Assembly: GCA_006218025.1 (NCBI GenBank)
Contig: VBWA01000044.1
Location: 1-35,757 of the forward strand
DNA length: 35,757 nt
Direction: 5' to 3'
Source: Rhodocyclaceae bacterium
GTDB lineage: Bacteria; Pseudomonadota; Gammaproteobacteria; Burkholderiales; Rhodocyclaceae
Part shown: positions 400 to 35,668 of the stretch, piece after piece
Layout: each line of letters begins with the position of its first letter
Position numbering within the stretch: position 1 is the stretch's first letter
The notes under the pieces: model-generated
What the model was told of the DNA's origin: nothing
The model's database searches: none
The model's input: the letters and a program-made list of their open reading frames with translations, nothing else
Program-made: the position numbers and the translations under genes

Positions 400-1245
400 T
401 CAGGTATTCCAGATGCGCGGCGCGATGGCGTCGCGGCCGACGATTGTCGGACGCAAACATTGCCAGAGTGCGACAAACCATTCGCGCGCGGCTTCCGCCG
501 AATGGCCGAGATAGCGGCCGACAAACAACTGCGGCAAGACGCTGACGCCGCACCGTGCACCCGGTTCGATCGCGGTGACGGCGCGACAGGCGCGCAGGGT
601 TTCCGGCTCGATCTCGCGGCCCGCCGCCAGCACGGTGCTGCAGACGCTGAAGCCGGCGAGGCCGATCGGTGAATCCATGAGGGCCGATCCGCCATCGATC
701 ACGCCGCGCTCGCGCCACAGCAGCCATCCGTCGGCGCGGATGTCCGTGGCGAGCTTCAGGCGTCCACGATCGAGGGTCTCGCCGCTCGCGCGCCGGCCGA
801 AGCAGATCGTTTCCACGCCCGTAAAACGTGCGCCCTGCTCCAGCTCGATCGTGGTTCTCATAGTCGCCTGCGCACCGGAGAACACGATGCTCTCCTGCGG
901 CAGCCATTCCACCGTGGCGCCAGCGCCGACTTTCAGATGCACCTGCTGCGAGGACTGCGCGCCGCCCGATCGATACCACTTGCCGGCCCCCGGCGTGGTC
1001 AGCAGGGCATGGGCCGCCGCATCCGCCTCGATGCGAATGTCGAGCTGGTCGCCGCCGGCAATCCCGGCGGGCGGGTGAAGCACAATGGCATGGCACACTT
1101 CGGGCCCTTCCGGATAGAGCGCCTTCTGCACACGCAGCGGACCGCGATGGTCGCGGCGGACCAGAATCGTCGCGTCGCCGCGGCGGGCGAAGCCGAGCAC
1201 GAGCGAAGCCTGCCAGGGGGCGGAAATTGGTTCGGTGACCTGCAT
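400..1245 (-). CDS. ureD: Urease accessory protein UreD
   Basis: This encodes a 281-residue UreD (UreH) chaperone, which binds apo-urease and, with UreF and UreG, helps deliver nickel to the active site. Family features visible are the N-terminal A-x-L-x-L-G-F-A-R-R stretch, [11 protein letters not shown] near residue 55, [11 protein letters not shown] near residue 80 and [13 protein letters not shown] near residue 110. The start at 1245 is chosen because MQVTEP leads directly into the conserved part, and longer starts would run inside urtE. It begins 7 bases after urtE ends, so translation is probably coupled. One copy of the dispersed 25-base repeat (909-933) encodes the segment KVGAGAT. 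Confidence 0.95.
909..933 (-). repeat. Dispersed 25-base repeat, copy A (inside ureD)
   Basis: This copy carries the exact 16-base core AAAGTCGGCGCTGGCG on the minus strand and differs from the consensus at three of 25 positions, all in the last nine. It is read in frame as Lys-Val-Gly-Ala-Gly-Ala-Thr. UreD homologues often have a similar V-G-A-G stretch here, so this copy is the least certain as a true repeat. Confidence 0.55.
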
Positions 1246-1252
1246 GGCCGAA

Positions 1253-1945
1253 TCATACCGCCAGCAGTTCTCGCACGCCGTCCGCCGCCATGTCCGCGCC
1301 CGCGCCGCGCTTGATGATTTCGCCGCGCTCCATGACCAGGTACTGGTCGGCCAGGCTCTGGGCGAAATCGTAGTACTGCTCGACCAGCAGGATCGCCATG
1401 TTGCCCTCTTGGGCCAGCATGCGGATGGCACGCTCGATGTCCTTGATGATCGAGGGCTGGATGCCCTCGGTCGGCTCGTCGAGGATCAGCAGGCGCGGGC
1501 CGAAGGCCAAGGCACGGCCGATGGCGAGCTGCTGCTGCTGGCCGCCGGAGAGGTCGCCGCCGCGGCGTTTCAACATCTGCTTCAACACCGGGAACATTTC
1601 GAATATGCGCTCCGGGATCGGCGTGCCGGCGGGTCGCGTGGCGAGGCCCATTTGCAGATTTTCGAGCACCGTCAGGCGCGGGAAGATCTCGCGGCCCTGC
1701 GGCACGTAGCCGATGCCGGCTTGCACGCGCTCGTGGGAGGGTGCGCGCGTGAGATCCTTGCCGTCGAAGGAAATGCTGCCGGTCTTGGAAGGCACGAGAC
1801 CCATCAGGCATTTCAGCAGCGTGGTCTTGCCGACTCCGTTTCTGCCGAGCACGGTCGTCACCTTGCCGATCGGCGCCTCGAAACTCACATCGCGCAGGAT
1901 GTGGCTGCCGCTGTAGTACTGGTTGAGTTTGTCGACTTTCAACAT
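1253..1945 (-). CDS. urtE: Urea ABC transporter ATP-binding protein UrtE
   Basis: This 230-residue protein is one of the two ATPases of the UrtABCDE high-affinity urea importer at the inner membrane. It shows Walker A GRNGVGKT (residues 34-41), the signature LSGGQ (132-136) and Walker B LLILDEP (152-158). The usual switch histidine is replaced by the LVEQY form found throughout the LivF/UrtE type, so this is normal for the family. It begins two bases after urtD stops and is followed by ureD after 7 bases. Placement beside urtD and ureD separates it from the closely related amino-acid LivF ATPases. Confidence 0.95.
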   Translation of the reverse strand: MLKVDKLNQYYSGSHILRDVSFEAPIGKVTTVLGRNGVGKTTLLKCLMGLVPSKTGSISFDGKDLTRAPSHERVQAGIGYVPQGREIFPRLTVLENLQMGLATRPAGTPIPERIFEMFPVLKQMLKRRGGDLSGGQQQQLAIGRALAFGPRLLILDEPTEGIQPSIIKDIERAIRMLAQEGNMAILLVEQYYDFAQSLADQYLVMERGEIIKRGAGADMAADGVRELLAV

Positions 1946-1947
1946 GA

Positions 1948-2687
<740 letters not shown>

Positions 2688-2691
<4 letters not shown>

Positions 2692-3809
2692 GCCGCACTC
2701 CCCTGCTTGCGTTTGTCGCGCAGCTTGCGCCACAGGCCGACCACGCCGTCGGGCAGCCACAGCGTGACGCCGACGAACAGCGCGCCGAGAAAGAACAGCC
2801 AGTACTCGGGGAAGGCCACGGTGAAGAAACTCTTCGCCAGGTTCACGATGAAGGCGCCGAGTACCGGGCCAATCAGCGTGGCGCGGCCGCCGACCGCGAC
2901 CCATATCGCGATCTCGATGGAATTCGCCGGCGACATTTCGCCGGGGTTGATGATGCCGACCTGCGGCACGTAGAGCGCACCGGCGATGCCGCACAAAAGC
3001 GCCGACAGGGTCCAGATAAAGAGCTTGTAGTAGAGCGGGTTGTAGCCGATGAACATGACGCGGGATTCGGCGTCGCGGATCGCCGCCAGCACGCGGCCGA
3101 GCTTCGATGTCACCAGGTAGCGGCCGAGCACCAGGGTCGCCAGCAGCATCGCCGCGGTCAGCGCAAACAAGGCGACGCGGGTTTCGGGCGCGGTGATGCT
3201 GTAGCCGAGGATGCGCTTGAAGTCGGTGAAGCCGTTGTTGCCGCCGAAGCCGGTTTCGTTGCGGAAGAAGAACAGCATCGCGGCGAAGACCATGGCCTGG
3301 GTGATGATCGAAAAATACACGCCCTTGATGCGCGAACGGAAGGCAAAGAAGCCGAAGATCAGCGCCACCAGCGCCGGCACGACGAGGACGAGAATGAGCA
3401 CCCAGAGGATGGAATCCGAGCCCGTCCAGTACCAGGGCAAGGCCTTCCAGTCGAGGAAGACCATGAAGTCGGGCAGGTCCGACTGGTAGGAACCGTCGCG
3501 GCCGATCTGTCGCATCAGGTACATGCCGAAGGCGTAGCCGCCGAGGGCGAAGAAGAGGCCGTGGCCGAGCGAAAGAATGCCGGTGTAGCCCCAGATCAGG
3601 TCCATCGCCACGGCGACGATGGCGTAGCACATGATCTTGCCGACCAGGGTGATGACGTAGGCCGAGACATGGAAGGGACTGCCCGCCGGCACCAGCAGGT
3701 GCAAGGCCGGCAGCAGGACCAGCGTGATGGCGGCGGCGATCGCGATGGCGATCCAGCCCCGCTTTGGCGTGGCGCCGAAGAAGCGGACGATGAAGGGGGT
3801 GCGCTTCAT
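2688..3809 (-). CDS. urtC: Urea ABC transporter permease UrtC
   Basis: This 373-residue LivM-type permease is one of two membrane subunits forming the urea channel. It has a basic N-terminus, then many hydrophobic segments, with the family stretches MDLIWGYTGILSLGHGLFFALGG, FFRNETGFGGNNGFTDF and VAVGGRATLIGPVLGA given here in part. Tryptophan-rich loops and the Gly-Gly-Asn-Asn-Gly motif are typical of UrtC rather than LivM. It overlaps both neighbours by four bases (ATGA junctions at 3806-3809 with urtB and at 2688-2691 with urtD). Confidence 0.95.
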
Positions 3810-5308
3810 GATTCGACGAACCTGCCCTTCAACGCAAAGAGGCCCTGCGGACGCTTCTGGATGAACATGATGATGAACACCAGCACGACGATCTTGGCGA
3901 TCACCGCGCCGGCCCAGCTTTCGATGAACTTGGTCACGATGCCCAGCCCCAGCGCCGCCCAGACCGCGCCGGCCAATTGCCCGACGCCGCCCAGCACGAC
4001 GACCATGAAGGAATCGACGATGTAGCCCTGCCCCATGTCGGGGCCGACGTTGGCGATCTGCGACAGGGCGACGCCGCCCAGACCCGCGATGCCGGCGCCG
4101 AGCGCGAAGGCCACGGTGTCGATGCGCCCCGTCGGCACGCCGACGCAGCCGGCCATGGCGCGGTTCTGCGTCACGGCGCGAACGAACATGCCGAGTCGCG
4201 TCCTGTTCATCAGCACCCAGACCAGCATCAGCACGAACAGGGCGAAGCCGACGATGACGATACGATTGAGCGGCAGCACGATGCTGGGCAGTATTTCGAG
4301 TCCGCCTGACATCCAGGAGGGATTCGCGACCTCGACGTTCTGCGCGCCGAAGATCACGCGCGCCGCCTGGATCAGCATCAAGGAGAGGCCCCAGGTGGCG
4401 AGCAGCGTTTCCAGCGCACGGCCGTAGAGCCAGCGGATTACCGTGCGCTCCAGCAGCACGCCGACCGCCGCCGCGGCGAAGAAGGCCACCGGTACGGCAG
4501 CCAGCAGATACCAGTCGAGTTGCGCCGGAAAATGCGTGCGGAACAGGCTCTGTATCACGTAGGTGGCATAGGCGCCGATCATCAGCAGTTCGCCGTGAGC
4601 CATGTTGATCACGCCCATGACGCCGTAGGTGATGGCGAGGCCCAGCGCGGCGAGCAGCAGGATGCTGCCCAGCGAGAGGCCGGAGAAGATGCGGCCAAGG
4701 GTCTCGGCCAGGGTCAGGCGGTCCTTGACCGCGAGATAGGAGCGGAAGGCGGCGCGGCGCACCTCGACATCGGCCTCGTTGGCCGGTTCGCTTTGTGCCT
4801 TGAGCACGGCCTTGGTGTTCGGATCGGCACTGGTCGCCAGCGAGTTCGCTGCCGCCAGGCGAATTTTCGGATCGGCATCCTTGAGCGTCGCCAGCGCATG
4901 GATTTCGACCAGCAACGCGCGGATCTTCGGCTCGCTTTCGCGGTCGCGCGCCTTCGCCAGCATCGGCGCCATCGCGGCCTCGACATTGGTGGCGATTTCC
5001 TTGACCGCCTTGAAGCGCACCGTCACGTCGGGGTCGATGAGTTTCAGCACCGCCAGTGCGCCTTCGAGTTCGCGCCGCACGCGGTTGTTGATCGTGATGT
5101 CCTCGCCCTTGTCATCCTTCAGCGTGCCGTCGGCAAGCTGCTGCAGCACCTCCAACGCCTCGGGCTCGGCGGTAAGCGCAAGCTTCTGGATCGCGGCGAT
5201 CTTGTCGTCGGATTCCTCGGCCGCGAGCTGGCGCACCAAGGCCGGGTCCGGCACCGCGTAGGCGGCGAGACTCAGGCAGCACAGCAGGGTGAAGACGAGT
5301 TTGCGCAT
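3806..5308 (-). CDS. urtB: Urea ABC transporter permease UrtB with N-terminal helical-repeat domain
   Basis: This 500-residue protein is the LivH-type permease partner of UrtC. Residues 1-18 look like a signal peptide (MRKLVFTLLCCLSLAAYA). Residues 20-200 form an Ala/Leu-rich helical region resembling HEAT repeats (IRLAAANSLA, VEVRRAAFRSYLA). The membrane domain follows from about residue 205, with ITYGVMGVINMAHGEL and VVLGGVGQLAGAVWAALG. The long N-terminal domain is usual for proteobacterial UrtB and is probably periplasmic. A structured 89-base gap separates it from urtA upstream. Confidence 0.95.
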   Translation of the reverse strand: MRKLVFTLLCCLSLAAYAVPDPALVRQLAAEESDDKIAAIQKLALTAEPEALEVLQQLADGTLKDDKGEDITINNRVRRELEGALAVLKLIDPDVTVRFKAVKEIATNVEAAMAPMLAKARDRESEPKIRALLVEIHALATLKDADPKIRLAAANSLATSADPNTKAVLKAQSEPANEADVEVRRAAFRSYLAVKDRLTLAETLGRIFSGLSLGSILLLAALGLAITYGVMGVINMAHGELLMIGAYATYVIQSLFRTHFPAQLDWYLLAAVPVAFFAAAAVGVLLERTVIRWLYGRALETLLATWGLSLMLIQAARVIFGAQNVEVANPSWMSGGLEILPSIVLPLNRIVIVGFALFVLMLVWVLMNRTRLGMFVRAVTQNRAMAGCVGVPTGRIDTVAFALGAGIAGLGGVALSQIANVGPDMGQGYIVDSFMVVVLGGVGQLAGAVWAALGLGIVTKFIESWAGAVIAKIVVLVFIIMFIQKRPQGLFALKGRFVES

Positions 5309-5315
5309 TTTCGGG

Positions 5316-5340
5316 AAAGTCGGCGCTGGCGGTACGGCGA
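5316..5340 (+). repeat. Dispersed 25-base repeat, copy B (between urtA and urtB)
   Basis: This intergenic copy has the exact 16-base core and one mismatch to the consensus in 25. Its second half forms the left arm of the hairpin at 5331-5365. Confidence 0.75.
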
Positions 5341-5365
5341 CCCGCGAAAGCGCGGCCGCCGTACC
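5331..5365 (-). other. Stem-loop in the urtA-urtB gap
   Basis: GGTACGGCG (5331-5339) pairs with CGCCGTACC (5357-5365). A second stem, CCGCG (5342-5346) with CGCGG (5351-5355), closes on a four-base loop. No run of T follows on either strand, so a full terminator is unlikely. I infer that it protects the urtA end of the message or partly reduces read-through, which would give more binding protein than permease, as is common after periplasmic binding-protein genes. Confidence 0.6.
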
Positions 5366-5397
5366 GGTTCAGCTACACAGGGAGCAAGGATCGAAGC

Positions 5398-6666
5398 TTA
5401 CTTGCCTTCGGGCTCGTCCTTCTTCTTGTCGTTGCCTGCGATGAAGGGCGACCAGGGCTGGGCCTTGACCGGGCCCTTGGTCTTCCAGACCACGTTGAAC
5501 TGGCCATCGGCCTTGACTTCGCCGATGAACACTGCCCGGTGCAGGTGGTGGTTCTTCTCGTCCATCTTGATGGTGAAGCCCGACGGCGCCTTGAAGGTCT
5601 GGCCGCCCATGGCCGCGATCACCTTGTCGACGTCGGTACTCTTGGCCTTCTCGACCGCCTGTTTCCACATGTGGAGGCCGATATAGGTGGCTTCCATCGG
5701 GTCGTTGGTGACGACTGACTCGGCCTTCGGCAACTTCTGCTTTTTCGCCCAGTCGCGGTACATCTTGATGAAGGCGTCGTTCTGCGGGTTCTTGATCGAC
5801 TGGAAGTAGTTCCAGGCGGCGAGGTGTCCCACAAGCGGTTTCGTATCGACGCCGCGCAGCTCCTCTTCGCCGACCGAGAAAGCCACCACCGGCACGTCGG
5901 TCGCCTTGAGGCCGGCGTTGCCGAGTTCCTTGTAGAAAGGCACGTTGGAATCGCCGTTGATGGTCGACACCACGGCCGTCTTCTTGCCCTCGCCGGCGAA
6001 CTTCTTGATCTTGGCGATGATGGTCTGGTAGTCGGAATGGCCGAAGGGGGTGTACTCCTCCATGATGTCGGCTTCGGCGACGCCCTTCGACTTGAGGAAG
6101 GCGCGCAGGATCTTGTTGGTGGTGCGCGGATAGACGTAGTCGGTGCCGAGCAGCACCCAGCGCTTGGCCGAGCCGCCGTCCTTGCTCATCAGGTATTCGA
6201 CGGCCGGGATCGCCTGCTGGTTGGGCGCAGCGCCGGTGTAGAAGACGTTCTTTTCGAGTTCCTCGCCCTCGTACTGCACGGGATAGAACAGCAGGCCGTT
6301 GAGTTCCTTGAACACGGGGTTCACCGACTTGCGCGAGACCGATGTCCAGCAGCCGAAGACCACCGCGACCTTGTCCTGCGTCAGGAGCTGGCGAGCCTTC
6401 TCGGCGAACAGCGGCCAGTTGGAGGCCGGATCCACCACCACGGCTTCGAGCTGCTTGCCCATGACACCGCCCTTGGCATTGATTTCGGCGATGGTCATCA
6501 GCGCCGTTTCCTTCAGCGCGGTTTCTGAAATGGCCATGGTGCCGGAAAGGGAATGCAGGATGCCGACCTTGATGGTGTCGGCGGCGATGGCGGGAAGCGA
6601 AGCAAAGCCGGAGGCGGCCAGCGCTATTGAAACGGCGGTGGCCTTGATGAAGTTGCGACGAAACAT
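5398..6666 (-). CDS. urtA: Urea ABC transporter substrate-binding protein UrtA
   Basis: This 422-residue protein is the periplasmic urea-binding component. The N-terminus MFRRNFIKATAVSIALAASG resembles a twin-arginine (Tat) leader (RRNFIK), with likely cleavage after PAIAA near residue 29. The mature part shows UrtA features: KVGILHSLSGTMAISE, CWTSVSRKSVNPVF, LLFYPVQYEGEE, DYVYPRTTNKI and DPMEATYIGLHMW. An AAAGGAG ribosome binding site lies 8 bases before the ATG. It is the first gene of the operon, below a sigma-54 promoter. Its 3' end is followed by the stem-loop at 5331-5365. Confidence 0.97.
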   Translation of the reverse strand: MFRRNFIKATAVSIALAASGFASLPAIAADTIKVGILHSLSGTMAISETALKETALMTIAEINAKGGVMGKQLEAVVVDPASNWPLFAEKARQLLTQDKVAVVFGCWTSVSRKSVNPVFKELNGLLFYPVQYEGEELEKNVFYTGAAPNQQAIPAVEYLMSKDGGSAKRWVLLGTDYVYPRTTNKILRAFLKSKGVAEADIMEEYTPFGHSDYQTIIAKIKKFAGEGKKTAVVSTINGDSNVPFYKELGNAGLKATDVPVVAFSVGEEELRGVDTKPLVGHLAAWNYFQSIKNPQNDAFIKMYRDWAKKQKLPKAESVVTNDPMEATYIGLHMWKQAVEKAKSTDVDKVIAAMGGQTFKAPSGFTIKMDEKNHHLHRAVFIGEVKADGQFNVVWKTKGPVKAQPWSPFIAGNDKKKDEPEGK

Positions 6667-6700
6667 GGCAAAACTCCTTTCAATGGATGTGAGCGGACCA

Positions 6701-6720
6701 ACCGTTTAGTCTTAAACGGT
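6701..6720 (-). other. Inverted repeat in the urtA leader
   Basis: ACCGTTTA (6701-6708) and TAAACGGT (6713-6720) form a perfect 8-bp stem with a four-base loop, 35 bases before the urtA start. If transcription starts near 6723, as the sigma-54 site predicts, this hairpin sits at the very 5' end of the message, where it could stabilise the RNA. It could also be an operator. No protein is suggested by the sequence itself. Confidence 0.5.
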
Positions 6721-6733
6721 GCAGTCCTTCCAT

Positions 6734-6749
6734 AGCGAAGGGCGTGCCA
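6734..6749 (-). promoter_or_regulatory. Sigma-54 promoter of the urt-ure operon
   Basis: On the minus strand the 16 bases TGGCACGCCCTTCGCT match the sigma-54 consensus TGGCACG-N4-TTGCW at every fixed position except one (TCGC for TTGC). The invariant GG and GC are at the correct spacing. The predicted start, about 12 bases downstream near 6723, lies 57 bases before the urtA ATG. Sigma-54 control fits nitrogen-regulated urea uptake and needs an enhancer-binding activator such as NtrC. Confidence 0.7.
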
Positions 6750-6850
6750 TGTCATCGGCAAAGCCGCACAAACAGCTGCAATCGGTTGCTGCTGCTGGGA
6801 AAATCCTTGACGCCGCGGCACGCGCAACGGACCGAGGGGAGAAACCGGCG

Positions 6851-6899: not shown

Positions 6900-6939
6900 C
6901 CGCCTTGGCCCTTGCGAAAAATCCGCGGAGCCTGGAGGA

Positions 6940-15800: not shown

Positions 15801-17276
15801 CTAGAGTCCCAAATCTTGCCACAGCGCATCGACGCGCTGCTTGACGGCGGGGTCCATGGCGATGGGACGACCCCACTCGCGCGTCGTCTCGCCAGGCCAC
15901 TTGTTGGTCGCATCGATACCCATTTTGCTCCCGAGGCTCGCCACCGGTGAAGCGAAATCGAGGTAATCAATGGGCGTGTTCTCGGCAATCAGGGTGTCGC
16001 GCGCGGCGTCGACACGCGTGGTGAGCGCCCAGATGACCTCGGGCCAGGAACGCACATCGACGTCTTCGTCGGTAACGATGATGAACTTGGTGTACATGAA
16101 TTGGCGCAGGAAGCTCCAGATGCCGAACATCACGCGCTTGGCATGCCCCGGATACTGTTTCCTGATGCTGACCACGGCCAGCCGGTAGGAGCAGCCCTCG
16201 GGCGGCAGGTAGAAATCGACGATCTCGGGAAATTGCTTTTGCAGCAGCGGGACAAACACTTCGTTCAAGGCCAGGCCGAGCATCGCCGGCTCGTCGGGCG
16301 GCTTGCCGGTGTAGGTGGAATGGTAGATCGGGTCGCGGCGCATGGTGATGCGGCCAGTATGGTCGCCAAACGGCCCTTCCGGGGCAGTTTCGTATTTTTG
16401 GCCTTCCGCGGCCGTCTCATTGGGATTGATGAAACCTTCGAGCACGATCTCGCTCGATGCCGGTACCTGCAGGTCCGAGCCGAGGCACTTCACCACTTCC
16501 GTCCTGGCTCCGCGCAGCAGCCCGGCGAACTGATATTCGGACAGCGTGTCGGGAACCGGCGTGACCGCCGCCAGAATCGTCGCCGGATCGGCGCCGATCA
16601 CTACCGCGACCGGGAAGGGCTCGCCGGGATGCGCCGCGCAATGTTCGCGGAAATCCAGCGCACCGCCGCGATGCGCCAGCCAGCGCATGATGACCTTGTT
16701 GGGCGCGATGACCTGCTGGCGGTAGATGCCGAGGTTCTGCCGGGTCTTTTGCGGCCCGCGCGTGACGACCAGACCCCAGGTGATCAGGGGCGCCACGTCG
16801 CCGGGCCAGCAGGTCTGCACCGGCAGGCGCCCCAGATCGACATCGCTGCCTTCCCATACCACGTCCTGACACGGCGCCGAGCTCAACAGCTTGGGCGCCA
16901 TGTTGAGCACCTGCTTGAGCACCGGCAGCTTGTCCCAGGCGTCCTTCAGGCCCCTCGGCGGCTCCGGTTCCTTGAGGTAGGCCAGCAGCGTGCCGACGTC
17001 GCGCAAACGGGTTTTCCAGTCGGCGTCCTCATTGTCTTCGCCTTCGGCGGCGGCGATGCCGAGCGCCACGCGGCGCGGCGTGCCGAACAAATTGACCAGC
17101 ACCGGAATCGAATGGCCCTTCGGCATTTCGAAGAGCAAGGCCGGCCCGCCGGCCCGCAGCACGCGGTCGGCGATCTCGGTCATCTCCAGCCTTGGATCGA
17201 CCTCGACGGCGATGCGCTTGAGTTCGCCCAGCGCTTCGAGTTGGGCAATGAAATCGCGCAGATCGGTATATTTCAT
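15801..17276 (-). CDS. ubiD: 4-hydroxy-3-polyprenylbenzoate decarboxylase UbiD
   Basis: This 491-residue protein is the UbiD decarboxylase of ubiquinone synthesis. It uses prenylated FMN, made by UbiX, to remove the carboxylate from 4-hydroxy-3-polyprenylbenzoate. Visible family features are [22 protein letters not shown] at the N-terminus (first 22 residues), [10 protein letters not shown] near residue 180, EGPFGDHTG near residue 300 and [11 protein letters not shown] near residue 430. Length agrees with E. coli UbiD (497). No ubiX is in the window. The gene is divergent from the hybrid kinase, with a 135-bp gap that carries a copy of the dispersed repeat. Confidence 0.97.
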
Positions 17277-17310: not shown

Positions 17311-17335
17311 AAAGTCGGCGCTGGCGACACGGCAC
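17311..17335 (+). repeat. Dispersed 25-base repeat, copy C (ubiD / kinase gap)
   Basis: This intergenic copy has the exact 16-base core and two mismatches at the last two of 25 positions. It lies 34 bases upstream of ubiD and about 75 bases before the kinase start. I see no stem-loop around it. Confidence 0.75.
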
Positions 17336-20080: not shown

Positions 20081-22123
20081 TTACGCCTTGAGCAACTCTT
20101 CGCGACCGCCCAACCAGCGCTGCAGATGCGCGGCGGCGGCCTCCGGCGCGTTGTGCAGCATGTCTTCCGCCACGGCGCGCGCCTGTTCGACCAGCGCCGC
20201 ATCTTCCAGATCGGCGTAGCGCAGCAGCGGCAGGCCGCTTTGCTTCGCCCCGATAAATTCACCGGGGCCGCGCAGGCGCAAGTCCTCGCGCGCGATCTCG
20301 AAACCGTCGGTGCTCTCGAAAATGACTTTCAGCCGCGCCCGGGCAAGTTCGCCCAGCGGCTGGGCGTAGAGCAGGATGCACGCCGACTGGGCCGTGCCGC
20401 GCCCGACGCGGCCGCGCAACTGGTGCAGTTGCGCCAGGCCGAAGCGCTCGGCGTGCTCGATGACCATCAGGCTGGCATTCGGCACGTCGACGCCGACTTC
20501 GATCACCGTGGTGGCCACCAGCAAATGAATCTCGTTCGCCACGAAAGCGCTCATCATGGCGGCCTTTTCGGCAGCCTTGAGGCGGCCATGGACGAGACCG
20601 ATCTTGAGGTCGGGCAGATCGGCCGCGAGGCGGGCGAAGGTCTCCTCCGCCGTCTTGAGTTGCAGGGTCTCGCTTTCTTCTATCAGCGGACAGACCCAGT
20701 AGGCCTGACGCCCGCCGCGGCAGGCCTCATGCACGCGCGCCACAACCTGGTCGCGGCGGGCTTCCGAAACCAGCTTGGTGGTCACCGGGCTGCGGCCGGG
20801 TGGCAGCTCGTCGAGCACCGAAACATCCAGGTCGGCGTAGTAACTCATCGCCAGGGTGCGCGGGATCGGCGTCGCCGACATTGCCAGCTGATGCGCATAG
20901 AGGCCCTTGTCTTTCAGCGCCAGGCGCTGGCGCACGCCGAAGCGGTGCTGCTCGTCGACAATCGCCAGGCCGAGGCGGGCGAACTCGACCTTGTCTTCGA
21001 TCAGGGCATGCGTGCCGACAATAATCGGCGTGTCGCCAGCGCCGACTTTCACGATCGCCGCCTCCTTCTCGCGCTTCTTCAGGCTGCCGGTGAGCCACGC
21101 GACTTCGAGGCCGAGCGGCGCCAGCCACGCCGCCAGCTTGCGGTAATGCTGCTCGGCAAGGATTTCCGTCGGCGCCATCAGCGCCGCCTGATGCCCGGCT
21201 TCGACCGCCTGCAGCATGGCCAGCGCGGCCACCACCGTCTTGCCGCTGCCGACATCGCCCTGCAGCAGGCGCTGCATCGGATGCGGCTGGGCCAGATCGG
21301 AAGCGATCTCCTGCCAGGCACGTTGTTGCGCCTTGGTCAGGCGAAACGGCAGCGAGGCCAGCAGCGACCTGGTCAGCTTCGCCGTTGATTTGAGTCGCGG
21401 TGCGCCGCGGGCGCGGCGGGCGGCATAGGCACGCCGCAGACTGAGTTGCTGCGCCAGCAGTTCGTCGAACTGCACGCGGCGCCAGGCCGGATGGTCGCGG
21501 GCTTCCAGCTCAGCCTGGGTCATTTCCGGCGGCGGCGTATGCAGGCGATGAATTGCGGCGGCGAACTCGGGTAGATGCAGGCGCTCGCGCAGGGCCGGCG
21601 GCAGCGTGTCGGCCAGATCGGCGCGCGTCAGCGCGCGCTCGATCAGGCGGCGCAAGGTAGCCTGGCCGAGACCGGCCGTGGTCGGATAGACCGGCGTCAG
21701 GCATTCCGGCAGGCTTTCGCCGGCCGCGACGACATGGAAACGCGGATGGATGATTTCAGGACCGAGATAGCCCTCGTGCAGCTCGCCGAAAATCCTCAGG
21801 CGCGCACCGGGCTGCAAGACCTTTTGCTGGCTCGGATAGAAATTCAGGAAGCGCAGCAGCAATGCGCCGCTGTCATCCCTTACGCGCGCCAGCAACTGGC
21901 GACGCGGCCGATAGGCGATTTCGCTGTCTACGACCTCGACCTCGAACTGCGCCGCGACACCTGCCCGCGCGTCGACGAGCGCCGTGATGCGGGTTTCATC
22001 CTCGTAACGCAGCGGCAGATGCAGGATGAAATCGGCATCGGTGCGCAGACCGAGCCGAGCCAGGCGGGCCGCAAGAGTATTGGCGCTCGCGGCCTTTTTT
22101 TCAGCCAAGGACGAGCACGGCAT
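20081..22123 (-). CDS. recG: ATP-dependent DNA helicase RecG
   Basis: This 680-residue protein is RecG, which remodels stalled replication forks and branched recombination intermediates. An N-terminal wedge (OB-fold) region (about 1-230; [10 protein letters not shown]) precedes the SF2 helicase core. That core shows [14 protein letters not shown] (Walker A), [18 protein letters not shown] (DEAH-type box), [22 protein letters not shown] and the C-terminal [16 protein letters not shown]. The ATG at 22123 overlaps ridA by 23 bases; a TTG a few codons downstream is possible. A dispersed-repeat copy encodes KVGAGDT between the Walker A region and the DEQH box. Confidence 0.97.
21025..21049 (-). 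repeat. Dispersed 25-base repeat, copy D (inside recG)
   Basis: This copy has the exact 16-base core and one mismatch in 25. It is read as Lys-Val-Gly-Ala-Gly-Asp-Thr just before IIVGTHAL. RecG homologues align across it without a gap, so it did not lengthen the protein. Confidence 0.7.
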
Positions 22124-25018: not shown

Positions 25019-25768
25019 ATGTTTCTGCTGAAGAAGCTCATCGCCGCCCTGATCCTGCCGCCCGCCGGGCCGCTGCTGCTGGCGCTGCTCGGGCTGTGGC
25101 TGACGCGCGCCAAGAGTCGGCGCTGGCAACACGCCGGCCTGTGGCTGGTGACTCTCTCGCTGCTCGGCCTGCTCGTTCTCTCGCTGCCGATCGTCGGCAA
25201 CGCGCTGATGGCACCTCTGGAACCGCATCCGCCGATCACGCCGGCGCAATTGCAGCGGGCGCAGGCAATCGTCGTCCCCGGTGCCGGCTCCTATCGCGCC
25301 GCACCCGAATACGGAGGCGATACGGTCGGCTATTACACGCTGGAGCGCCTGCGCTACGGGGCACGACTGGCGCGCCAATCCCGCCTGCCGCTGCTGGTGA
25401 CCGGCGGCGCCCCGTTCGGCGGCCGGCCCGAGGCCGAGTCGATGCGCGAAGCGCTAGAGAATGATTTCGGCGTGAAGGTGCGCTGGGTCGAAGCCGCCTC
25501 GCGCGACACCGCGGAAAACGCCAGCCTGTCGGCGCCGATGCTGAAGGCGGCCGGCATCACCCGGATTGCCCTGGTCAGCCACGGCTGGCATCTGCCGCGC
25601 GCGATTTCGCTGTTTGAAAAGCAGGGACTGGAGGTCATCGCGGCGCCGACGGCATTCAGCACGACCTCGCCGGCGCTGATCGAAAACCTGCTTCCCGGCG
25701 CCATGGTGCGCAGCCGTCAGGCATTGAGCGAATACCTCGGTCAACTCTATAACCGTCTCAAGGAATAA
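25019..25768 (+). CDS. YdcF/ElyC-like DUF218 membrane protein
   Basis: This 249-residue protein has two N-terminal hydrophobic segments (about 8-28 and 38-60), followed by a DUF218 domain: AIVVPGAGSYRAAPEYGGDTVGYYT at residues 84-108, LLVTGGAPFGGRPEAESM, EAASRDTAENA and VSHGWHLPRAISLFEKQG. This resembles ElyC/YdcF proteins linked to envelope polysaccharide biology. The chemistry of the domain is not settled. Translation of mog begins 2 bases after its stop, so the two are co-expressed. Confidence 0.9.
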   Translation: MFLLKKLIAALILPPAGPLLLALLGLWLTRAKSRRWQHAGLWLVTLSLLGLLVLSLPIVGNALMAPLEPHPPITPAQLQRAQAIVVPGAGSYRAAPEYGGDTVGYYTLERLRYGARLARQSRLPLLVTGGAPFGGRPEAESMREALENDFGVKVRWVEAASRDTAENASLSAPMLKAAGITRIALVSHGWHLPRAISLFEKQGLEVIAAPTAFSTTSPALIENLLPGAMVRSRQALSEYLGQLYNRLKE

Positions 25769-28820: not shown

Positions 28821-29776
28821 TTCTTGTCGGAGATATAGGCGGCACCAAGACGCTGCTGGGTCTGGCGCAGAACGGAAAGCTCGTTCTCGATCGCCGTGTC
28901 GCCAACGCCGACTTCCAGGATTTCGCCAGCCTGCTGGCGGCTTTCTTCGCCGACACGCAGACCGATCCGGCGCTGATCGCCGGCGGCTGCCTCGCGGTGG
29001 CCGGCCCGATCGCCGATGACGGCGGCTCGGCGACGCTGACGAACCTGCCCTGGAGCATCGATAGTGGCGGCCTCGCGCGCCGCTTTGGCCTGCCCGCCTT
29101 GCGTCTGGCGAACGACTTCGCCGCTGCCGCGCTGGGCGCCGTCGCGGCATCGCCCGCCCAATTGGTCACCCTGCAGCCAGGCGAACCACTGACGACCGCT
29201 CCGTGCCTGGTCATCGGCGCCGGCACCGGGCTCGGCATGGCCATCGTCCTGCCGCAAGGCGACACATGGCGAGTCCTTGCCGGCGAAGGCGGCCATGTTG
29301 CCTTCGCCCCGGCTGATGAGCAGCAGATGGCACTGTGGGCCTTCCTCCATGCCCGGCACGGCCGCGTCACCTGGGAACGGGTAGTTTCGGGGCCGGGACT
29401 CACCGCGATCCAGGAGTTTGCAACCGGAGCCCGCTTGTCCCCGGAGCACATCGCGACGCGCGCACAGGACGACCCGAAGGGCGCCGCGCGGCGCTCGCTG
29501 GATATGTTCCTGGCTGCCTATGGCGCCTTCGCCGGCGACATGGCCCTGGCCTGCCTGCCCCGCGGCGGCGTCTTCCTCGCCGGTGGCATCGCGGCCAAGC
29601 TGCAGCCGGTGCTACCGCAAAGCGGCTTTCTCGCGGCCTTCAATGCCAAAGCCGAGCACGCCGCCATCGCGGCGCGCATGCCGATCCACGTCGTCACCGA
29701 TCCGCTGCTCGGACTTCACGGCGCGCTGGTTCTCGCGCGCGATCAAAGCTTGACGCCGGTCAAACTGCTGTCATAA
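28817..29776 (+). CDS. glk: Glucokinase
   Basis: This 319-residue Glk-type sugar kinase makes glucose 6-phosphate from glucose and ATP in the cytoplasm. Motifs are [14 protein letters not shown] (phosphate 1), [39 protein letters not shown] and [10 protein letters not shown]. The start is GTG at 28817: it gives the family N-terminus and its GTGA overlaps the thyA stop codon by four bases, so translation is likely coupled. A dispersed-repeat copy lies at 28891-28915 in antisense orientation, encoding RRVANADF. Glucose 6-phosphate links it to the glycogen genes on the right. Confidence 0.95.
28891..28915 (-). repeat. Dispersed 25-base repeat, copy E (inside glk, antisense)
   Basis: This copy differs from the consensus at two of 25 positions, one inside the core (GTTGG for GCTGG). 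It lies in reverse orientation relative to glk, so the gene reads the complementary strand as Val-Ala-Asn-Ala-Asp-Phe, which still fits the kinase family. Confidence 0.65.
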
Positions 29777-29827
29777 ATTAGGAGCAGCATGGGCAGGTAG
29801 CATTCTGGCAATCAGGAGGAGGAGCAT

Positions 29828-30250
29828 ATGGCAACCGCAAAGAGCAGCGCAAAAACGTCGCCAGGCAAACGTCCGACACCGGCAGCAGGGTCTGTTGCCG
29901 CCAAGCTCAAGCCGGCAACCAGGGTGGCAGCCAAACCGGAACCGGCAGCGAAGCCGGTTCCCAAGGCAGCCCCCAAGGCGACCCCGAAAACAGCGCCGAA
30001 AGTAGCCCCGAAAGCCGCCCCGAGAGCCGCCCCAAAGGCCGCCCCGAAAGCGACTCCGGCGAAGGCGGCGCCTCGGCGCACCAGGAAACCGGCGAGTGCG
30101 CCGCTCGAACAGCGCAGGAATTACATCGAGATGGCCGCCTATTACATTGCCGAGCGACGCGGCTTTGCTCCGGGCAATCCGCTGGAAGACTGGGTGCAGG
30201 CCGAAGCCGAGATTGACCGCCTGCTGGCGGAAGGGCGCCTGGGCAAGTAA
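29828..30250 (+). CDS. DUF2934 protein with histone-H1-like Ala/Lys/Pro tail
   Basis: This 140-residue protein has residues 1-92 made almost only of Ala, Lys, Pro and Thr, with tandem units of the type APKA/TPKT (about residues 45-75). This resembles histone-H1-like DNA-compacting tails. Residues 93-138 match DUF2934 (RRNYIEMAAYYIAERRG, NPLEDWVQAEAEIDRLL), a short helical domain of unknown role. A very strong AGGAGGAGG ribosome binding site precedes the ATG, suggesting high expression. It may be read with glk (51-base gap). It could bind DNA or RNA through charge, but this is inference. Confidence 0.85.
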   Translation: MATAKSSAKTSPGKRPTPAAGSVAAKLKPATRVAAKPEPAAKPVPKAAPKATPKTAPKVAPKAAPRAAPKAAPKATPAKAAPRRTRKPASAPLEQRRNYIEMAAYYIAERRGFAPGNPLEDWVQAEAEIDRLLAEGRLGK

Positions 30251-30263
30251 AGGATCGCCCGAG

Positions 30264-30278
30264 GCCGGTCAGACCGGC
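30264..30278. repeat. 15-base palindrome at the glgB 3' end
   Basis: GCCGGTC (30264-30270) and GACCGGC (30272-30278) flank a single base. It lies in the 18-bp convergent gap and covers the last codons of glgB. No T-run follows, so it is at most a weak bidirectional stop signal. Confidence 0.4.
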
Positions 30279-32422
30279 AGCAACACCAGCGCCGCCAGGG
30301 GCGGCAGGGTCAAGGTGAGCGAGGCGGGAAAGCCCATCCAGGTTTGAGCCGCGGCGGAGACGCGGCCGTTGTTGCCCATGTCGCTGCCGCCGTAGTGTGC
30401 CGAGTCGGTGTTGATCCGCTCGACGTAGTCCTGGACCAGCGGTACGCCGAGGCGATAGTTGTGGCGCGGCACGGGAGTGAAGTTCAGTACCACCACCGCG
30501 AGGCGGCCATCGCGGGATCTGCGCAGCCAGCTCACCACGGATTGATCGGCGTCATGGCAGTCGATCCACTGAAAACCTGCAGAGGAGAAGTCCAGTTCAT
30601 GCAATGCAGGTTCGCCCAGGTAAAGCTGGTTGAGCTCGCGCGTCAGACTCTGTACGCCGGCGTGCAAGGGATATTGCAGCAAATGCCACGGCAGTTCCTC
30701 GCCCGCCCGCCATTCCCACGACTGCCCGATCTCCGCACCCATGAACTGCAGCTTCTTGCCGGGTGCCGTCATCTGGTAGGCCAGCAACAGGCGCAGGTTG
30801 GCAAAGCGCTGCCACTCGTCGCCCGGCATTTTCCCCAGCAGGGAACTCTTGCCGTGCACCACTTCGTCGTGCGACAGGGGCAGCACGAAGTTTTCGGTGT
30901 AGGCATAGAGTTGGCCGAAGGTCAGCCGCTCGTGGTGATAGCGCCGATGCACCGGATCCTGCTGCATGTATTCCAGCGTGTCGTTCATCCAGCCCATGTT
31001 CCATTTCATCGAGAAACCCAGGCCGCCGAGCCAGGTCGGCCGCGACACCATCGGCCAGGCGGTGGACTCTTCGGCAATGGTCAGCGCGCCGGGAAAATCG
31101 GCATGCACCATTTCGTTCATCTCGCGCAGGAAGGCAATCGCTTCGAGATTCTCGCGCCCGCCATGGATGTTCGGCGTCCACTCGCCGGCCTTGCGCGAAT
31201 AGTCGAGATAGATCATCGAGGCCACGGCGTCGACGCGCAAGCCATCGATATGGAATTCGGACAGCCAATAGTAGGCCGAGGACAGCAGAAAGCTCCTGAC
31301 TTCGTTGCGCCCGTAGTTGAAGACATGCGTACCCCAGTCGGGATGCATTTTCTGCTTCGGATCACTGTGTTCGTAGAGCGCCGTACCGTCGAAATGGGCC
31401 AGCGCCCAGTCATCGGCGGGAAAGTGGCCGGGGACCCAGTCGAGGAGGACGCCAATGCCCGCCTGATGCAGGTTGTCGATCAGGAAGCGCAAGTCGTCCG
31501 CGCTGCCGAAGCGCGAACTCGGCGCGAAGAAACCTGTGCATTGATAGCCCCAGGACTCGTCGAGCGGATGTTCCATCAGCGGCATGAATTCGACGTGCGT
31601 GTAGCCCATCTCGGCAAGATAGGGCACCAGGCGCGCGGCCAGCTCGCGGTAGCTGTAGAAGCGCCCGTCGGGATGGCGCATCCAGCTGCCCAGATGCATC
31701 TCGTAGGTACTCATCGGCGCCGACAACCAGTCCCGCGCCTCTCTCGCCTGCATCCAGCCGCTGTCGTTCCAGACATGCGCCGGGACGGGCGTCACGCAGC
31801 AGGCCGTGGCCGGACGCCGCTCGAAGCCGTGCGCATAGGGGTCGGTCTTGAGCCGCAGCGCGCCACTGCCGCGCACGCGCAGTTCGAAGCGATACAGCGC
31901 TCCGGCGGCAAGCCCTGGGATGAACAGTTCCCAGACGCCGGAGGCGCCCAGGGTCGCCATCGGATGTACGCGGCCATCCCAGCCATTGAAAACACCCACC
32001 ACCGAAACCCGCTCGGCATTCGGCGCCCAGACGCGAAAGCAGACGCCTGCCACGCCATCGCGGATTTCCGGCAGCGCGCCGAGGGTGCGCCACGCCTGGC
32101 GCAAGCGTCCGGCGTTGAACAGGTAGAGGTCATCGGCCGGCGGCTGCGGCGGAAAAGCGTAGGGATCGTATTGCGTCACCCCATCGACATTCAACCGCCA
32201 CGGCCGCGGCGGCGGGGACGTGCCCTGCCACTCGAAGAGCGCCGTACCGCTACGGCGTTTCAGCGGCGCCCATTCGCCATTCGCCAGTTCCAGCGCGACC
32301 GCTTTCGCGTGCGGGCGGAACACCCGCAGACGCCAGCCCGCGCCGGCGGCATGGAGACCCAGCACGGAAAACGGATCATGTTCTCGCGCTTCGAGCAGCG
32401 CGGCGCAGGCGGAGTCGGGCAT
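30269..32422 (-). CDS. glgB: 1,4-alpha-glucan branching enzyme
   Basis: This 717-residue GH13 enzyme introduces alpha-1,6 branches into glycogen. Two N-terminal CBM48-like regions ([35 protein letters not shown]) precede the catalytic barrel. Barrel motifs are [18 protein letters not shown], the nucleophile Asp in [18 protein letters not shown], the acid Glu in [11 protein letters not shown] and [15 protein letters not shown]. Length is near E. coli GlgB (728). The ATG at 32422 is chosen because upstream sequence is not family-like; no ribosome binding site is evident. It is divergent from glgC. Confidence 0.97.
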
Positions 32423-32547
32423 GGGTATATATTTGGAGGGTTTCTTTGCTATCGTGCGGATTGTAGCCGCAACGGGGAAATCATCATGCAATCCATTGTA
32501 GAACAAGGCGGCAGCTTTCAGCAGCCAGGCACCACGGGAGCAAGTCC
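32423..32547. promoter_or_regulatory. Divergent glgB / glgC control region
   Basis: This 125-bp gap must hold both promoters. It contains a TATATATTT patch next to glgB and a direct repeat ATTGTAG (near 32459 and 32496, read as TACAAT on the minus strand, a good -10 form). I could not pair either with a well-placed -35 box. GGGAG 9 bases before the glgC ATG is its ribosome binding site. Confidence 0.4.
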
Positions 32548-33807
32548 ATGCAGCTAAGCGAACTTACGCGCAGCACCTTCGCCATCGTACTGGCCGGCGG
32601 GCGCGGCAGCCGCCTGATGCAGCTGACCGACTGGCGCTCGAAACCGGCGGTGCCTTTCGGCGGGAAATTCCGCATCATCGACTTCACCCTGTCGAATTGC
32701 GTCAATTCCGGCATCCGCAAGATCGGCGTCGCCACGCAGTACAAGGCGCAGAGCCTGATCCAGCACTTGCAGCGCGGCTGGAGTTTTCTCGACGGCCGCT
32801 TTCACGAGTTCATCGACATCCTGCCGGCGCAGCAACAGGTCAGCGAGAACTGGTACCAGGGGACGGCCGATGCCGTATTCCAGAATCTCGACCTGATTCG
32901 GCGCAGCCGGCCCAAATACGTGCTGGTACTTTCCGGTGATCACGTCTACAAAATGGACTATCGCCGCATGCTGTCGGAACATGTGCAGCGGCAAGCCGAT
33001 CTCAGCGTGGCCTGCATCGATGTGCCATTGGCGGAGGCGAGCGGCTTCGGCGTCATGCACATCGACGACAACCAGCACGTTGCGGCCTTCGTCGAGAAGC
33101 CGGCCAATCCGCCGCCGATGCCAGGCCGCCCCGACCGTGCGCTGGCCAGCATGGGCGTGTATATCTTCAATGCCGACTTCCTCTATGAGCAACTGATCCG
33201 CGTGCACGACGATCCGCGCTCGTCCCACGACTTCGGCAAGGATGTGATTCCGCATTGCGTCGAGCGCTATCGCGTGTTTGCCCACAACTTCGCCAACTCC
33301 TGCGTCGGCATGGACAGCACCGGGATTCCCTACTGGCGCGATGCCGGCACCATCGATGCCTACTGGGAGGCCAACATGGAACTGACCAAGGTCACCCCGG
33401 AACTCAATCTTTATGATGATGACTGGCCGATCTGGACCCACCAGGAGCAGTTGCCGCCGGCCAAATTCGTTTTCGACGATGAAGGCAGGCGCGGCATGGC
33501 GGTCGATTCCCTGATCTCGGGCGGCGACATCATCAGCGGCGCCGTCGTGCGCAAGACGCTGCTGTTCTCCCGCGTGCACATCCACAGCTACGCGGAGATC
33601 GAGGAGTCGGTGATCCTGCCCGATGTACACATCGGCCGCCATGCAAAGCTGCGCAGGGTGGTCATGGACAAGCACTGCCGGGTTCCCGAAGGCATGCTGA
33701 TCGGTTACGATAGCGCCGCCGACCGCCAGCGCTTCCATGTCACCGAGAACGGCATCACCCTCGTGACGCCGGAGATGCTCGGCCAGCAGGCGCATTACAT
33801 AAGATGA
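32548..33807 (+). CDS. glgC: Glucose-1-phosphate adenylyltransferase
   Basis: This 419-residue enzyme makes ADP-glucose from ATP and glucose 1-phosphate, the committed step of glycogen synthesis. Motifs are [26 protein letters not shown] (nucleotide-binding, residues 14-39), the [11 protein letters not shown] segment, [12 protein letters not shown] and FVEKP. The C-terminal third has the left-handed beta-helix pattern ([28 protein letters not shown], given by residues 329-356). GGGAG precedes the ATG. It is divergent from glgB and is followed, after a structured gap, by the GH57 gene. A glycogen synthase gene is not in the window. Confidence 0.97.
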
Positions 33808-33827
33808 CTTTCAAATTGAAAGTCATC
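33803..33827 (+). other. 25-base perfect palindrome over the glgC stop codon
   Basis: GATGACTTTCAA (33803-33814) and TTGAAAGTCATC (33816-33827) are perfect complements around one base. The TGA stop (33805-33807) is inside the left arm. It may act as a terminator-like hairpin or RNA-stability element, although there is no T-run after it. Confidence 0.7.
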
Positions 33828-33840
33828 AAGGCCAATATAA

Positions 33841-33874
33841 CCCCCCACCCCCATCCCCCGCCCCGGGGCGGGGG
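33841..33874. other. C-tract (minus-strand G-quadruplex motif) fused to a 20-base GC palindrome
   Basis: Runs of 6, 5, 5 and 4 C (33841-33864) are separated by one, two and one bases. The minus strand therefore has four G-runs of at least four with very short loops, a strong G-quadruplex pattern. CCCCCGCCCC (33855-33864) and GGGGCGGGGG (33865-33874) form a perfect palindrome sharing the last two runs. The rest of the gap to 33946 shows nothing else I can name. Confidence 0.65.
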
Positions 33875-33946
33875 CCAGGTTTTGCTCGCTGCGCTCGATC
33901 ATATGGACAACTCCCCCATTCACCCGGTTTTGGTCTCACCCCGAGC

Positions 33947-35668
33947 ATGAAAACCCTCGATCTCGTTTTTCTCTGGCACATGCACCAGCCGGACTATCGC
34001 GACCATGGCGCGACGAAAGTCGGCGCTGGCGATACGGCGACGGGGGAATTCGTCCTGCCCTGGGTCTACCTGCACGCGATGAAGGATTACGTCGACATGG
34101 CCGCGCACCTGGAACGCCATCCGCTGATGCGCTGCGTGGTGAATTTCGTGCCGGTGCTGCTCGAACAGATCGAGGACTACGCGCAGCAATTCGCCAGCGG
34201 CGAGTTCCGCGACCCGCTGCTGCGCATGCTCGCCACGCCCGACCTGGGTCGCATCAGCGAAGCGGACCGGCGCCTGCTGCTGACTACCTGCTTCCGCAGC
34301 AACCACACCACCATGCTGGCGCCCTTCCCCCACTACAAGCGCCTGCACGACATCTACCTGCTGCTCAGCCACGAGACCGAAACAGCCTACAGCTATCTCT
34401 CCGGGGCCTACTTCTCCGACCTCGTGACCTGGTACCACCTGGCCTGGACCGGCGAAACCGAGCGCCGCCGCAATCCGCTGCTGGTCAGGCTGATGAGCCA
34501 GGGCGAGGCCTATGACGCGGATGACAGGCTGCAACTGCTGGCCAGCATCGGCGAGTTGATCACCGGCCTGATTCCGCGCTGGCGAGCGCTGGCCGCACGC
34601 GGCCAGGTCGAGCTCTCGACGACACCGCAAACGCATCCGCTGGCTCCGCTCATGCTCGACTTCCGTGTCGCTCGCGAAAGCCTGCCCGACGCGGCGCTGC
34701 CCTTCTCCGCCGCCTACCCCGGCGGACGCAGCCGCGTGATCAGCCAGATCGAGGCCGCGCGAGCCAGCCACGCCGGACGTTTCGGCGCACCGCCGGCCGG
34801 CATGTGGCCCGCCGAAGGCGCGATCTCCGAGGACTTCGTCAAGTATCTGGCCGCGGCCGGCTGCGGCTGGATCGCCAGCGGCGAAGGCGTGCTGAAGAAC
34901 AGCCTCGCCACGAGCCACATTACGGACCCGCATGCGGCCTACCACCCCTGGCGGCTGGAAAGGGCACCGGGATTGACGCTGTACTTCCGCGACGAGCGGC
35001 TGTCCGACCTGATCGGCTTCGACTACGCAAAGTGGCACGGCCGCGACGCCGCACAACACCTCGTGCTCCAGCTGGAGGCCATTCTCGACGCGGCTGCCGA
35101 GAACGAGACGCCGGTGGTCAGCATCATTCTCGACGGCGAAAATGCGTGGGAGCACTATCCCTACAACGGCTACTATTTTTTCGACGACCTCTACGGCCTG
35201 CTGGCCGAGCACCCGCGCATCCGCACCCGAACCTACGCCGAACTGCTGGCGCAGGAACAGCCCCCCGTCGCCCGCGTGCTGCCGCACCTGACGGCTGGCA
35301 GCTGGGTCTATGGCACGCTGTCCACCTGGATCGGCGATGAGGCGAAAAACCGCGCCTGGGATTTGTTGTGCGAGGCCAAGCAGAGTTGCGACCGGGTCCT
35401 TTCCAGCGGGCGGCTCGATGCCGCCCAGGTCGCCGCGGTCGAGACGCAACTGGCGATCTGCGAAAGCTCCGACTGGTTCTGGTGGTTCGGCGACTACAAC
35501 CCGTCGGCCGCCGTCGCCAGCTTCGACAACCTGTACCGGCGCAACCTGGCGCGGCTCTACCGCTTGCTGCAAGTGGAACCGCCGCCCCAGCTCGACATCC
35601 CCATTTGCGCCGGATCCTCCACCGCGGCAGGCGGCTCGATGCGCCGCGCCACCGTAACGCCCAACTAA
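33947..35668 (+). CDS. GH57 family glucan-active enzyme
   Basis: This 573-residue GH57-type protein starts LVFLWHMHQPDYRD, the family entry motif. The likely nucleophile is Glu290 in GMWPAEGAISEDFV and the likely acid Asp396 in ILDGENAWEHYPYNGYYFFD. GH57 enzymes act on alpha-glucans as amylases, glucanotransferases or branching enzymes; which one cannot be told here. The glycogen neighbourhood supports a role in glycogen turnover. There is no signal peptide, so it is probably cytoplasmic. No ribosome binding site is evident at the ATG. Residues 20-32 (HGATKVGAGDTAT) coincide with a dispersed-repeat copy and look like an insertion compared with the family pattern YRD-x-x-GEF. Confidence 0.93.
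   Translation: MKTLDLVFLWHMHQPDYRDHGATKVGAGDTATGEFVLPWVYLHAMKDYVDMAAHLERHPLMRCVVNFVPVLLEQIEDYAQQFASGEFRDPLLRMLATPDLGRISEADRRLLLTTCFRSNHTTMLAPFPHYKRLHDIYLLLSHETETAYSYLSGAYFSDLVTWYHLAWTGETERRRNPLLVRLMSQGEAYDADDRLQLLASIGELITGLIPRWRALAARGQVELSTTPQTHPLAPLMLDFRVARESLPDAALPFSAAYPGGRSRVISQIEAARASHAGRFGAPPAGMWPAEGAISEDFVKYLAAAGCGWIASGEGVLKNSLATSHITDPHAAYHPWRLERAPGLTLYFRDERLSDLIGFDYAKWHGRDAAQHLVLQLEAILDAAAENETPVVSIILDGENAWEHYPYNGYYFFDDLYGLLAEHPRIRTRTYAELLAQEQPPVARVLPHLTAGSWVYGTLSTWIGDEAKNRAWDLLCEAKQSCDRVLSSGRLDAAQVAAVETQLAICESSDWFWWFGDYNPSAAVASFDNLYRRNLARLYRLLQVEPPPQLDIPICAGSSTAAGGSMRRATVTPN
34016..34040 (+). repeat. Dispersed 25-base repeat, copy F (inside the GH57 gene)
   Basis: This copy fits the consensus at all 25 positions and continues as the exact 27 bases that encode Lys-Val-Gly-Ala-Gly-Asp-Thr-Ala-Thr. 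Being nine codons long, it keeps the reading frame. Confidence 0.8.

Follow-up and report, generated by a model that had tools for sequence, protein, structure and literature searches.

According to passages in two papers, uptake sequences occur in hundreds to thousands of copies, form dialects that follow phylogeny, and include inverted pairs (PMC12616744, PMC3630211). Passages elsewhere describe their origin by point mutation (PMC1939737) and treat gaps in the spread of the DNA uptake sequence (DUS) as a sign of islands (PMC7371117). Here we describe a 25-base word, about RRAGTCGGCGCYGGCGRNACGGCGA, that is dispersed in a 35,757-nt stretch of a Rhodocyclaceae genome (contig VBWA01000044.1; the whole stretch is called the window) and in the genomes of its relatives. 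We propose that this 25-mer is probably a DNA uptake sequence, like the Neisseria DUS or the Haemophilus uptake signal sequence (USS) but unrelated to them in sequence and longer.

The 25-mer resembles the Neisseriaceae DUS, which are read by ComP, in its genome-wide excess, its clade dialects, its presence in genes and spacers, the occurrence of some inverted pairs, and the constancy of some bases across dialects, as described in part of PMC3630211. It differs in sequence and in length (25 bases versus about 12), has hundreds of copies rather than about 900 to 6000, and forms few inverted pairs. Its constant part is the outer blocks, whereas that of the DUS is the central CTG; the motif is not a 12-mer with a constant CTG core, and matches to the ComP_DUS family do not track it. 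Like the Pasteurellaceae USS, it is long and discontinuous, with a core and further blocks; the USS has two types, divided by subclade, in the account that part of PMC12616744 gives. Unlike the USS, which joins a 9-base core to two AT-rich tracts, it has a GC-rich second block and belongs to a different bacterial class. The motif profiles showed no AAGTGCGGT or ACAAGCGGT core with AT-rich tracts, and the likeness of AAAGTC to the USS start, AAGTGCGGT, is superficial only. Repetitive extragenic palindromic (REP) elements and Rickettsia palindromic elements are dispersed short repeats, some of them in genes. Unlike these, the 25-mer has no palindrome and no longer flanking unit, and its origin at recG was by substitution (see below). 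Chi, KOPS, matS, and HIP1 are short dispersed chromosomal words, from which the 25-mer differs in lacking strand bias, focus on the replication terminus, and palindromy.

A first-pass annotation of the window had listed six copies with their strands, mismatch counts, and a 16-base core identical in five of them. We recovered all of these as described (Table 1), and 100 dinucleotide shuffles of the window gave 0 matches. The spacing had suggested a genome-wide family, and the source genome (G000; 4.44 Mb in 141 contigs) indeed held 526 copies (272 forward, 254 reverse) when up to 3 mismatches were allowed, a count far from expectation given that the 25-mer spelled backward had 0 matches. When copies were aligned with their flanks, conservation extended over about 26 positions and fell to background outside, giving sharp ends and no shared flanks. 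A gene-conversion tract, one of the roles proposed earlier, should carry its flanks and is disfavored by this result.

In 800 kb of the complete relative G002, a refined profile found 179 sites, whereas a simulated control of equal length gave 8. The core 12-mer AGTCGGCGCTGG was the top-scoring overrepresented 12-mer in an 800-kb sample of that genome (89 observed versus 1.7 expected). Copies in G002 were most numerous at 2 to 3 mismatches, and from about 7 mismatches the counts per kilobase were close to those of motif-free relatives; 200-kb samples of each of the motif-free G034, G055, and G047 contained no copy even with 5 mismatches allowed. The information in a binding site normally matches the amount needed to locate its sites. 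In G002 the motif carries 30.7 bits, versus the 13.1 bits sufficient to mark its 179 sites. Given this excess and the peak at 2 to 3 mismatches, the copying of the 25-base word goes far beyond the need of locating sites. At one end of contig C120 of G000, three motif copies lie within about 560 bases (L017, 462-1022, reverse strand).

All 31 genomes searched in the source genus, the source genome included, carried the 25-mer, in 17 to 526 copies (115 in G025), and the control matched in none. Exact matches in a named collection were mostly in records titled Sulfuritalea, Rhodocyclales, or Rhodocyclaceae, among the best 80 of at least 115 stretches. We surveyed 395 genomes of the family with a bipartite pattern (AAAGTC, ACGGC[AG], and the inner GC fixed, the rest free), summing genus totals by hand from per-genome rows. 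Matches were abundant in the source genus (23 genomes, 8 to 279), g8 (1 genome, 555), g78 (1 genome, 406), g86 (4 genomes, 90 to 362), and g104 (9 genomes, 74 to 255). The 16 genomes of g10 included 15 with 15 to 262 matches and G221 with 3, and among the 19 of g19, 16 had 84 to 466 while G386 had 19, G321 had 7, and G309 had 0. An excess was also present in g23 (58 and 1) and g85 (17), and counts were weak in g106 (0 to 17) and in g81, g95, and g96 (6 to 9). The remaining genera of the family had 0 to 4 matches, with 0 to 3 for the backward controls, and 386 genomes outside the family had 0 to 5, except one with 10. Ten bipartite matches, of both dialects, were seen in G483, from another family of the order, as transfer or contamination might produce.

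The family contains several apparent losses of the motif. In G016 it is nearly lost (17 copies), and no new dialect was seen in 105.6 kb of that genome. The loss genomes G309 and G221 have RecG branches longer than those of their sisters (0.46, 0.19) and are small, at about 2.3 to 2.4 Mb.

Across related genera the outer blocks AAAGTC...ACGGC were constant and the center differed (GGCGCT, GACGCT, or AGTCNC). With the middle left free, the spelling was GGCGCY in G002 and AGTCNC in G039; G048 had GGCGCT, and its word ended in A (ACGGCA). A less settled spelling within the GGCGCT-type genera, AG with a mixed rest, came from G052 (7 sites only), and G114 spelled mostly GACG[CA]T among the matches listed, its recG site included. 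A dialect profile search in G047 gave zero matches. In a RecG tree of 30 rows, the 20 from GGCGCT-type genera were separated from the remaining 10 with support of 100/99, and g10 fell among motif-free genera; by these spellings and this tree, the dialects follow phylogeny. For a dialect-swap test, 10 pairs (9 sites) with E below 1e-20 were kept from a noisy list. In one, the G039 version of an aconitase-B-like gene has the AGTCGC form and the G002 version, in the same register, has a GGCGCC form that is 5 mismatches from the GGCGCT motif (E 2.8e-66). Because the second genus had no motif in the other nine pairs (9 to 17 mismatches), this case is only suggestive of an in-place dialect change.

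Other repeats turned up in the same genomes. We rejected AAAGTCATGACC in G047 as a dialect, since its copies form inverted pairs and make up a hairpin repeat (L267-L272). L276 of G034 holds a REP-like repeat that starts TGTGGGAGCGGC, followed by GGCCTCGCCGCGAT in most of the copies listed; its 12-mer matched 37 times in 200 kb, many of the matches closely spaced in L276. Tandem units of about 23 to 24 bases with GGGCACAAGACC occur in L249 and L250 of G048.

Three of the four genic window copies had been said to read K-V-G-A-G with GCT, an uncommon codon, for alanine. This reading holds for UreD, RecG, and a GH57 glycosidase, the fourth copy (28891) being antisense in a glucokinase gene, and GCT makes up 9.8% of the alanine codons in long open reading frames of G002. 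We found that V-G-A-G tetrapeptides in G002 used this rare codon in 25 of 41 cases, versus 6 of 57 for A/L/I-G-A-G controls (p 1.5e-7), which indicates that the constraint acts on the DNA. The figures from other genomes are small: 3/4 in G048 and 1/2 in G052, which bear the motif; 0/5 in G034, 0/6 in G047, and 1/4 in G055, which do not; and 0/4 in the loss genome G016. Judged from its sequence, the word appears to behave as a driven, lineage-spelled tag at the level of DNA.

A DNA-uptake-like signal is the best fit among the roles that the first-pass annotation offered, and we infer uptake itself. Parts of the machinery are in place: ComEC was found in 44 of 45 chosen genomes, including the loss genomes G016, G221, and G309, and the miss, G374, is 81% complete. 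Several results weigh against an uptake sequence. The three loss genomes retain both comEC and dprA. DprA was above the cutoff in 28 of 30 genomes, with the source genome and G141 as the two failures. ComEA (TIGR00426) was above the cutoff in 4 of 34 genomes and in only 1 of 29 from motif-bearing genera (G133). The ComP_DUS family was over the cutoff in 91 of 101 genomes, motif bearing and motif free alike, and in 43 of 45 in a second set; 30 such loci proved to hold pilin genes, 23 of them at least two, and the pI of the main pilins ranged from about 5 to 8.5 whether or not the genome bears the motif. The search through this family in the 101 genomes and 30 loci yielded no uptake receptor. 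Furthermore, compared with DUS, the motif is longer and its copies are less dense; inverted (hairpin) tails occur at only 5 of 39 intergenic copies, although random positions give 26 of 2000; the GH57 segment is wholly missing in several genomes; and G039, of a motif-bearing genus with another dialect, shows no GCT excess in VGAG (1/13), although its dialect predicts this.

None of ComP_DUS, ComEC, DprA, and ComEA separated motif-bearing from motif-free genomes. The DprA gap in G000 may be a contig gap. The TIGR00426 match in G000 was in a long frame only, and most other matches were in frames of 620 to 1257 amino acids (aa), probably Tex; PF12836, tried as another ComEA probe, likewise had most of its strong matches in frames of 620 to 1097 aa, probably Tex. 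Four ComEA proteins compared with the DNA gathered from the genomes studied, which covered about one-fifth of G002, matched only those long-frame proteins. Since TIGR00426 gave no match of any kind in nine genomes (G002 and eight others), the search loses genes and the absence of ComEA is unsure. Tex, aconitase B, FimT, PilW, and PilV are names that we assume here for proteins known only as sequence. Taken together, parts of the pilus and import machinery appear to be present, with ComEA and DprA unproven for the source genome.

The main rival is that the word is bound inside the cell by a protein that acts across the chromosome, for example in nucleoid structure, segregation, or repair, and whose specificity drifts by lineage. 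We consider this unlikely, while noting that copies on both strands, their even spread, the DNA-level constraint, and the lineage spelling fit it as well, and that the failure to find a receptor counts in its favor. We examined placement in 40 evenly spaced 20-kb stretches of G002, which held 125 sites at up to 4 mismatches. The spread was even (mean of 3.13 and variance of 2.93 per 20 kb), and both orientations were present. Copies showed neither a focus on the replication origin or terminus nor a leading-strand bias of the KOPS or Chi kind (leading 60, lagging 62, p 0.93, in two blocks of stretches read off GC skew with the first stretch left out). Six stretches below 60% GC, a cutoff picked after viewing the data, held 7 sites versus 18.75 expected (p 0.0016), a density about one-third of that elsewhere. 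The lack of strand bias and of origin or terminus focus, the 30.7 bits against 13.1 needed, and the low density at low GC all argue, though not decisively, against an intracellular binding site. A chromosome-organizing role had been suggested; its strand-biased or terminus-confined kind is disfavored by the even strand counts and spread, and another DNA-binding role stays plausible.

Spacers were enriched: 78 of the 123 copies that lay wholly within or wholly outside predicted genes were genic, versus a coding share of 83.6% (p 6e-8), where genes are codon-score open reading frames predicted here rather than an annotation. Viral contigs chosen for one copy had 6.2 extra copies per 100 kb, and host loci chosen alike had 12.1. 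In IMG/VR, 76 stretches of viral contigs (L367-L442) had an exact 24-base match, some of them two.

Another proposal had been a small mobile repeat, which here would have inserted into both genes and spacers. The hundreds of copies, genic and intergenic, are what such a repeat would leave, and the missing GH57 segment suits it; even so, we regard it as improbable. At the recG site, aligned in 30 genomes, the GGCGCT-type genera account for 20 rows, of which 14 read V-G-A-G. The remaining six have VDAG (G114, in its own dialect), VSAS and VSAF (G048, G148), IGAG (G016), IASG (G025), and LARG (G309). The ten rows outside these genera, six of them of the AGTC-dialect genus, read ISSG, VACG, LQSG, IASG, LESG, and the like, so that full conservation as ordinary protein sequence, an outcome that the first-pass annotation had considered, does not hold at recG. 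The alignment was gapless at the site except for one residue in G047, and it shows that the word at recG arose by substitution. In G016 the site reads ATA GGT GCC GGC; near-motif residues persist and the DNA word is eroded.

We extended the comparison of orthologous loci to 40 clusters, for which 480 of 874 pairs qualified (flank ends within 12 bases). Most of this pool comes from GH57 and recG, and overlapping loci in near-identical records may account for some of the clusters. Gapless pairs only were found in 27 clusters, 2 were mixed, and 11 had only length-differing pairs (one or two pairs each), a pattern that a mobile repeat could also give and that makes these 11 uninformative. Gapless replacement was seen at four single-pair loci as well. 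A clean empty site, as expected of REP or Rickettsia palindromic elements, was found in one cluster of the 40, the GH57 hypervariable loop; target duplications were not searched systematically. Consistently with an uptake sequence, then, origin by point mutation is seen at recG and in the 27 gapless clusters, with the GH57 loop as the exception. That loop varies in length, and the segment is missing in L159 (G016), L163 (G021), L162, L164, L169, L173, and L174. Because its length and content vary so widely, an insertion may have brought in copy 6 (34016). The flanks without a longer shared unit and the lineage dialects that copies follow are further points against a mobile repeat.

A transcription terminator or other RNA-level element strikes us as very improbable. 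It would account for the strong hairpin of which copy 2 is part (-33.6 kcal/mol, z -3.07; 1 of 200 shuffles equally good), whose two arms are altered together in G027, as judged by eye from the alignment. It would also suit the excess of inverted tails over random positions and the three intergenic full inverted pairs (2 in the 800-kb G002 sample, 1 in the source genome's own loci, and 0 in 80 named loci). Against it, 34 of the 39 intergenic copies have no inverted tail, and most copies are genic. Ordinary conserved protein sequence with codon bias, for which the K-V-G-A-G common to three window copies might speak, is refuted by the counts: copies within genes fall into every one of the six frame classes (33 of 78 in G002 read K-V-G-A-G on the coding strand, the commonest case), others lie in spacers, the samples of G034, G055, and G047 are empty, and VGAG in G002 takes the rare codon.

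Table 1. Copies of the 25-mer and an associated hairpin in the 35,757-nt window
Feature	Position	Strand	Location	Mismatches	Remark
Copy 1	909..933	-	inside ureD	3	K-V-G-A-G-A-T-V; UreD by Pfam
Copy 2	5316..5340	+	intergenic, permease gene (3806-5308) / substrate-binding protein gene (5398-6666)	1	
Hairpin	5330..5366	-			one arm includes last 11 bases of copy 2
Copy 3	17311..17335	+	intergenic, ubiD (15801-17276) / histidine kinase gene	2	
Copy 4	21025..21049	-	inside recG	1	K-V-G-A-G-D-T-P
Seventh, weaker copy	25113..25137	+	inside DUF218 gene	4	
Copy 5	28891..28915	-	antisense in glucokinase gene	2	
Copy 6	34016..34040	+	inside GH57 glycosidase gene, hypervariable loop	0	perfect

Individual window copies varied in their conservation among relatives. 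Copy 1 was at the same position, with no indel inside it, in the three genomes aligned there (G025, G022, and G027). Similar copies to copy 2 were present in G025 and G027 and absent from G022 and G012, and those to copy 3 were present in G002, G018, and G017 and absent from G010, G012, and G025. Copy 5 and the seventh copy each aligned without gaps to 9 other genomes, with a blank G016 row for copy 5 and a motif match of varying degree for the seventh. The product of 3806-5308 is a branched-chain-type permease with N-terminal HEAT-like repeats below the Pfam cutoff. Upstream of the GH57 gene, 33841-33899 is a second dispersed repeat, about 78 to 94% identical elsewhere in many genomes of the genus among the matches listed. 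A near-perfect palindrome, GATGACTTTCAAATTGAAAGTCATC (33803-33827), was seen by eye at the end of the open reading frame 32548-33807.

Under the uptake sequence that we favor, a receptor and a drive by recombination are what we infer. In this clade, cells would use type IV pili to take hold of free DNA, through a receptor that prefers the motif, and the captured DNA would be imported through ComEC and then recombined. Better-matching fragments would be imported more often, so that recombination would keep copying good matches into the chromosome, and point substitutions would build up hundreds of copies at places where a protein or spacer can accommodate them. As the receptor's preference drifted from lineage to lineage, dialects would emerge that share the outer blocks (AAAGTC, ACGGC) and have a center specific to each lineage.

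We tentatively suggest, as something short of probable, that the Rhodocyclaceae have a third, independently evolved sequence-marked uptake system, with a 25-base bipartite tag whose outer blocks are constant across genera and whose central hexamer serves as a lineage password, rewritten in place in conserved genes whenever it changes. Among open-licence papers, a literature search with the core strings and with Sulfuritalea plus uptake sequence found no paper, and the matches listed for novel uptake sequences and for uptake sequences or natural transformation in Rhodocyclales-type taxa included no report. Sequence-marked uptake of self-DNA has so far been reported for only two other bacterial families. 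Even under another role, the roughly 17 bits beyond the need of the sites call for explanation. As an uptake sequence, the 25-mer would be a genomic marker for which lineages exchange DNA, and a third family, represented mostly by metagenome genomes and showing at least three spellings and apparent losses, would allow the origin, change, and decay of uptake specificity to be tested independently.

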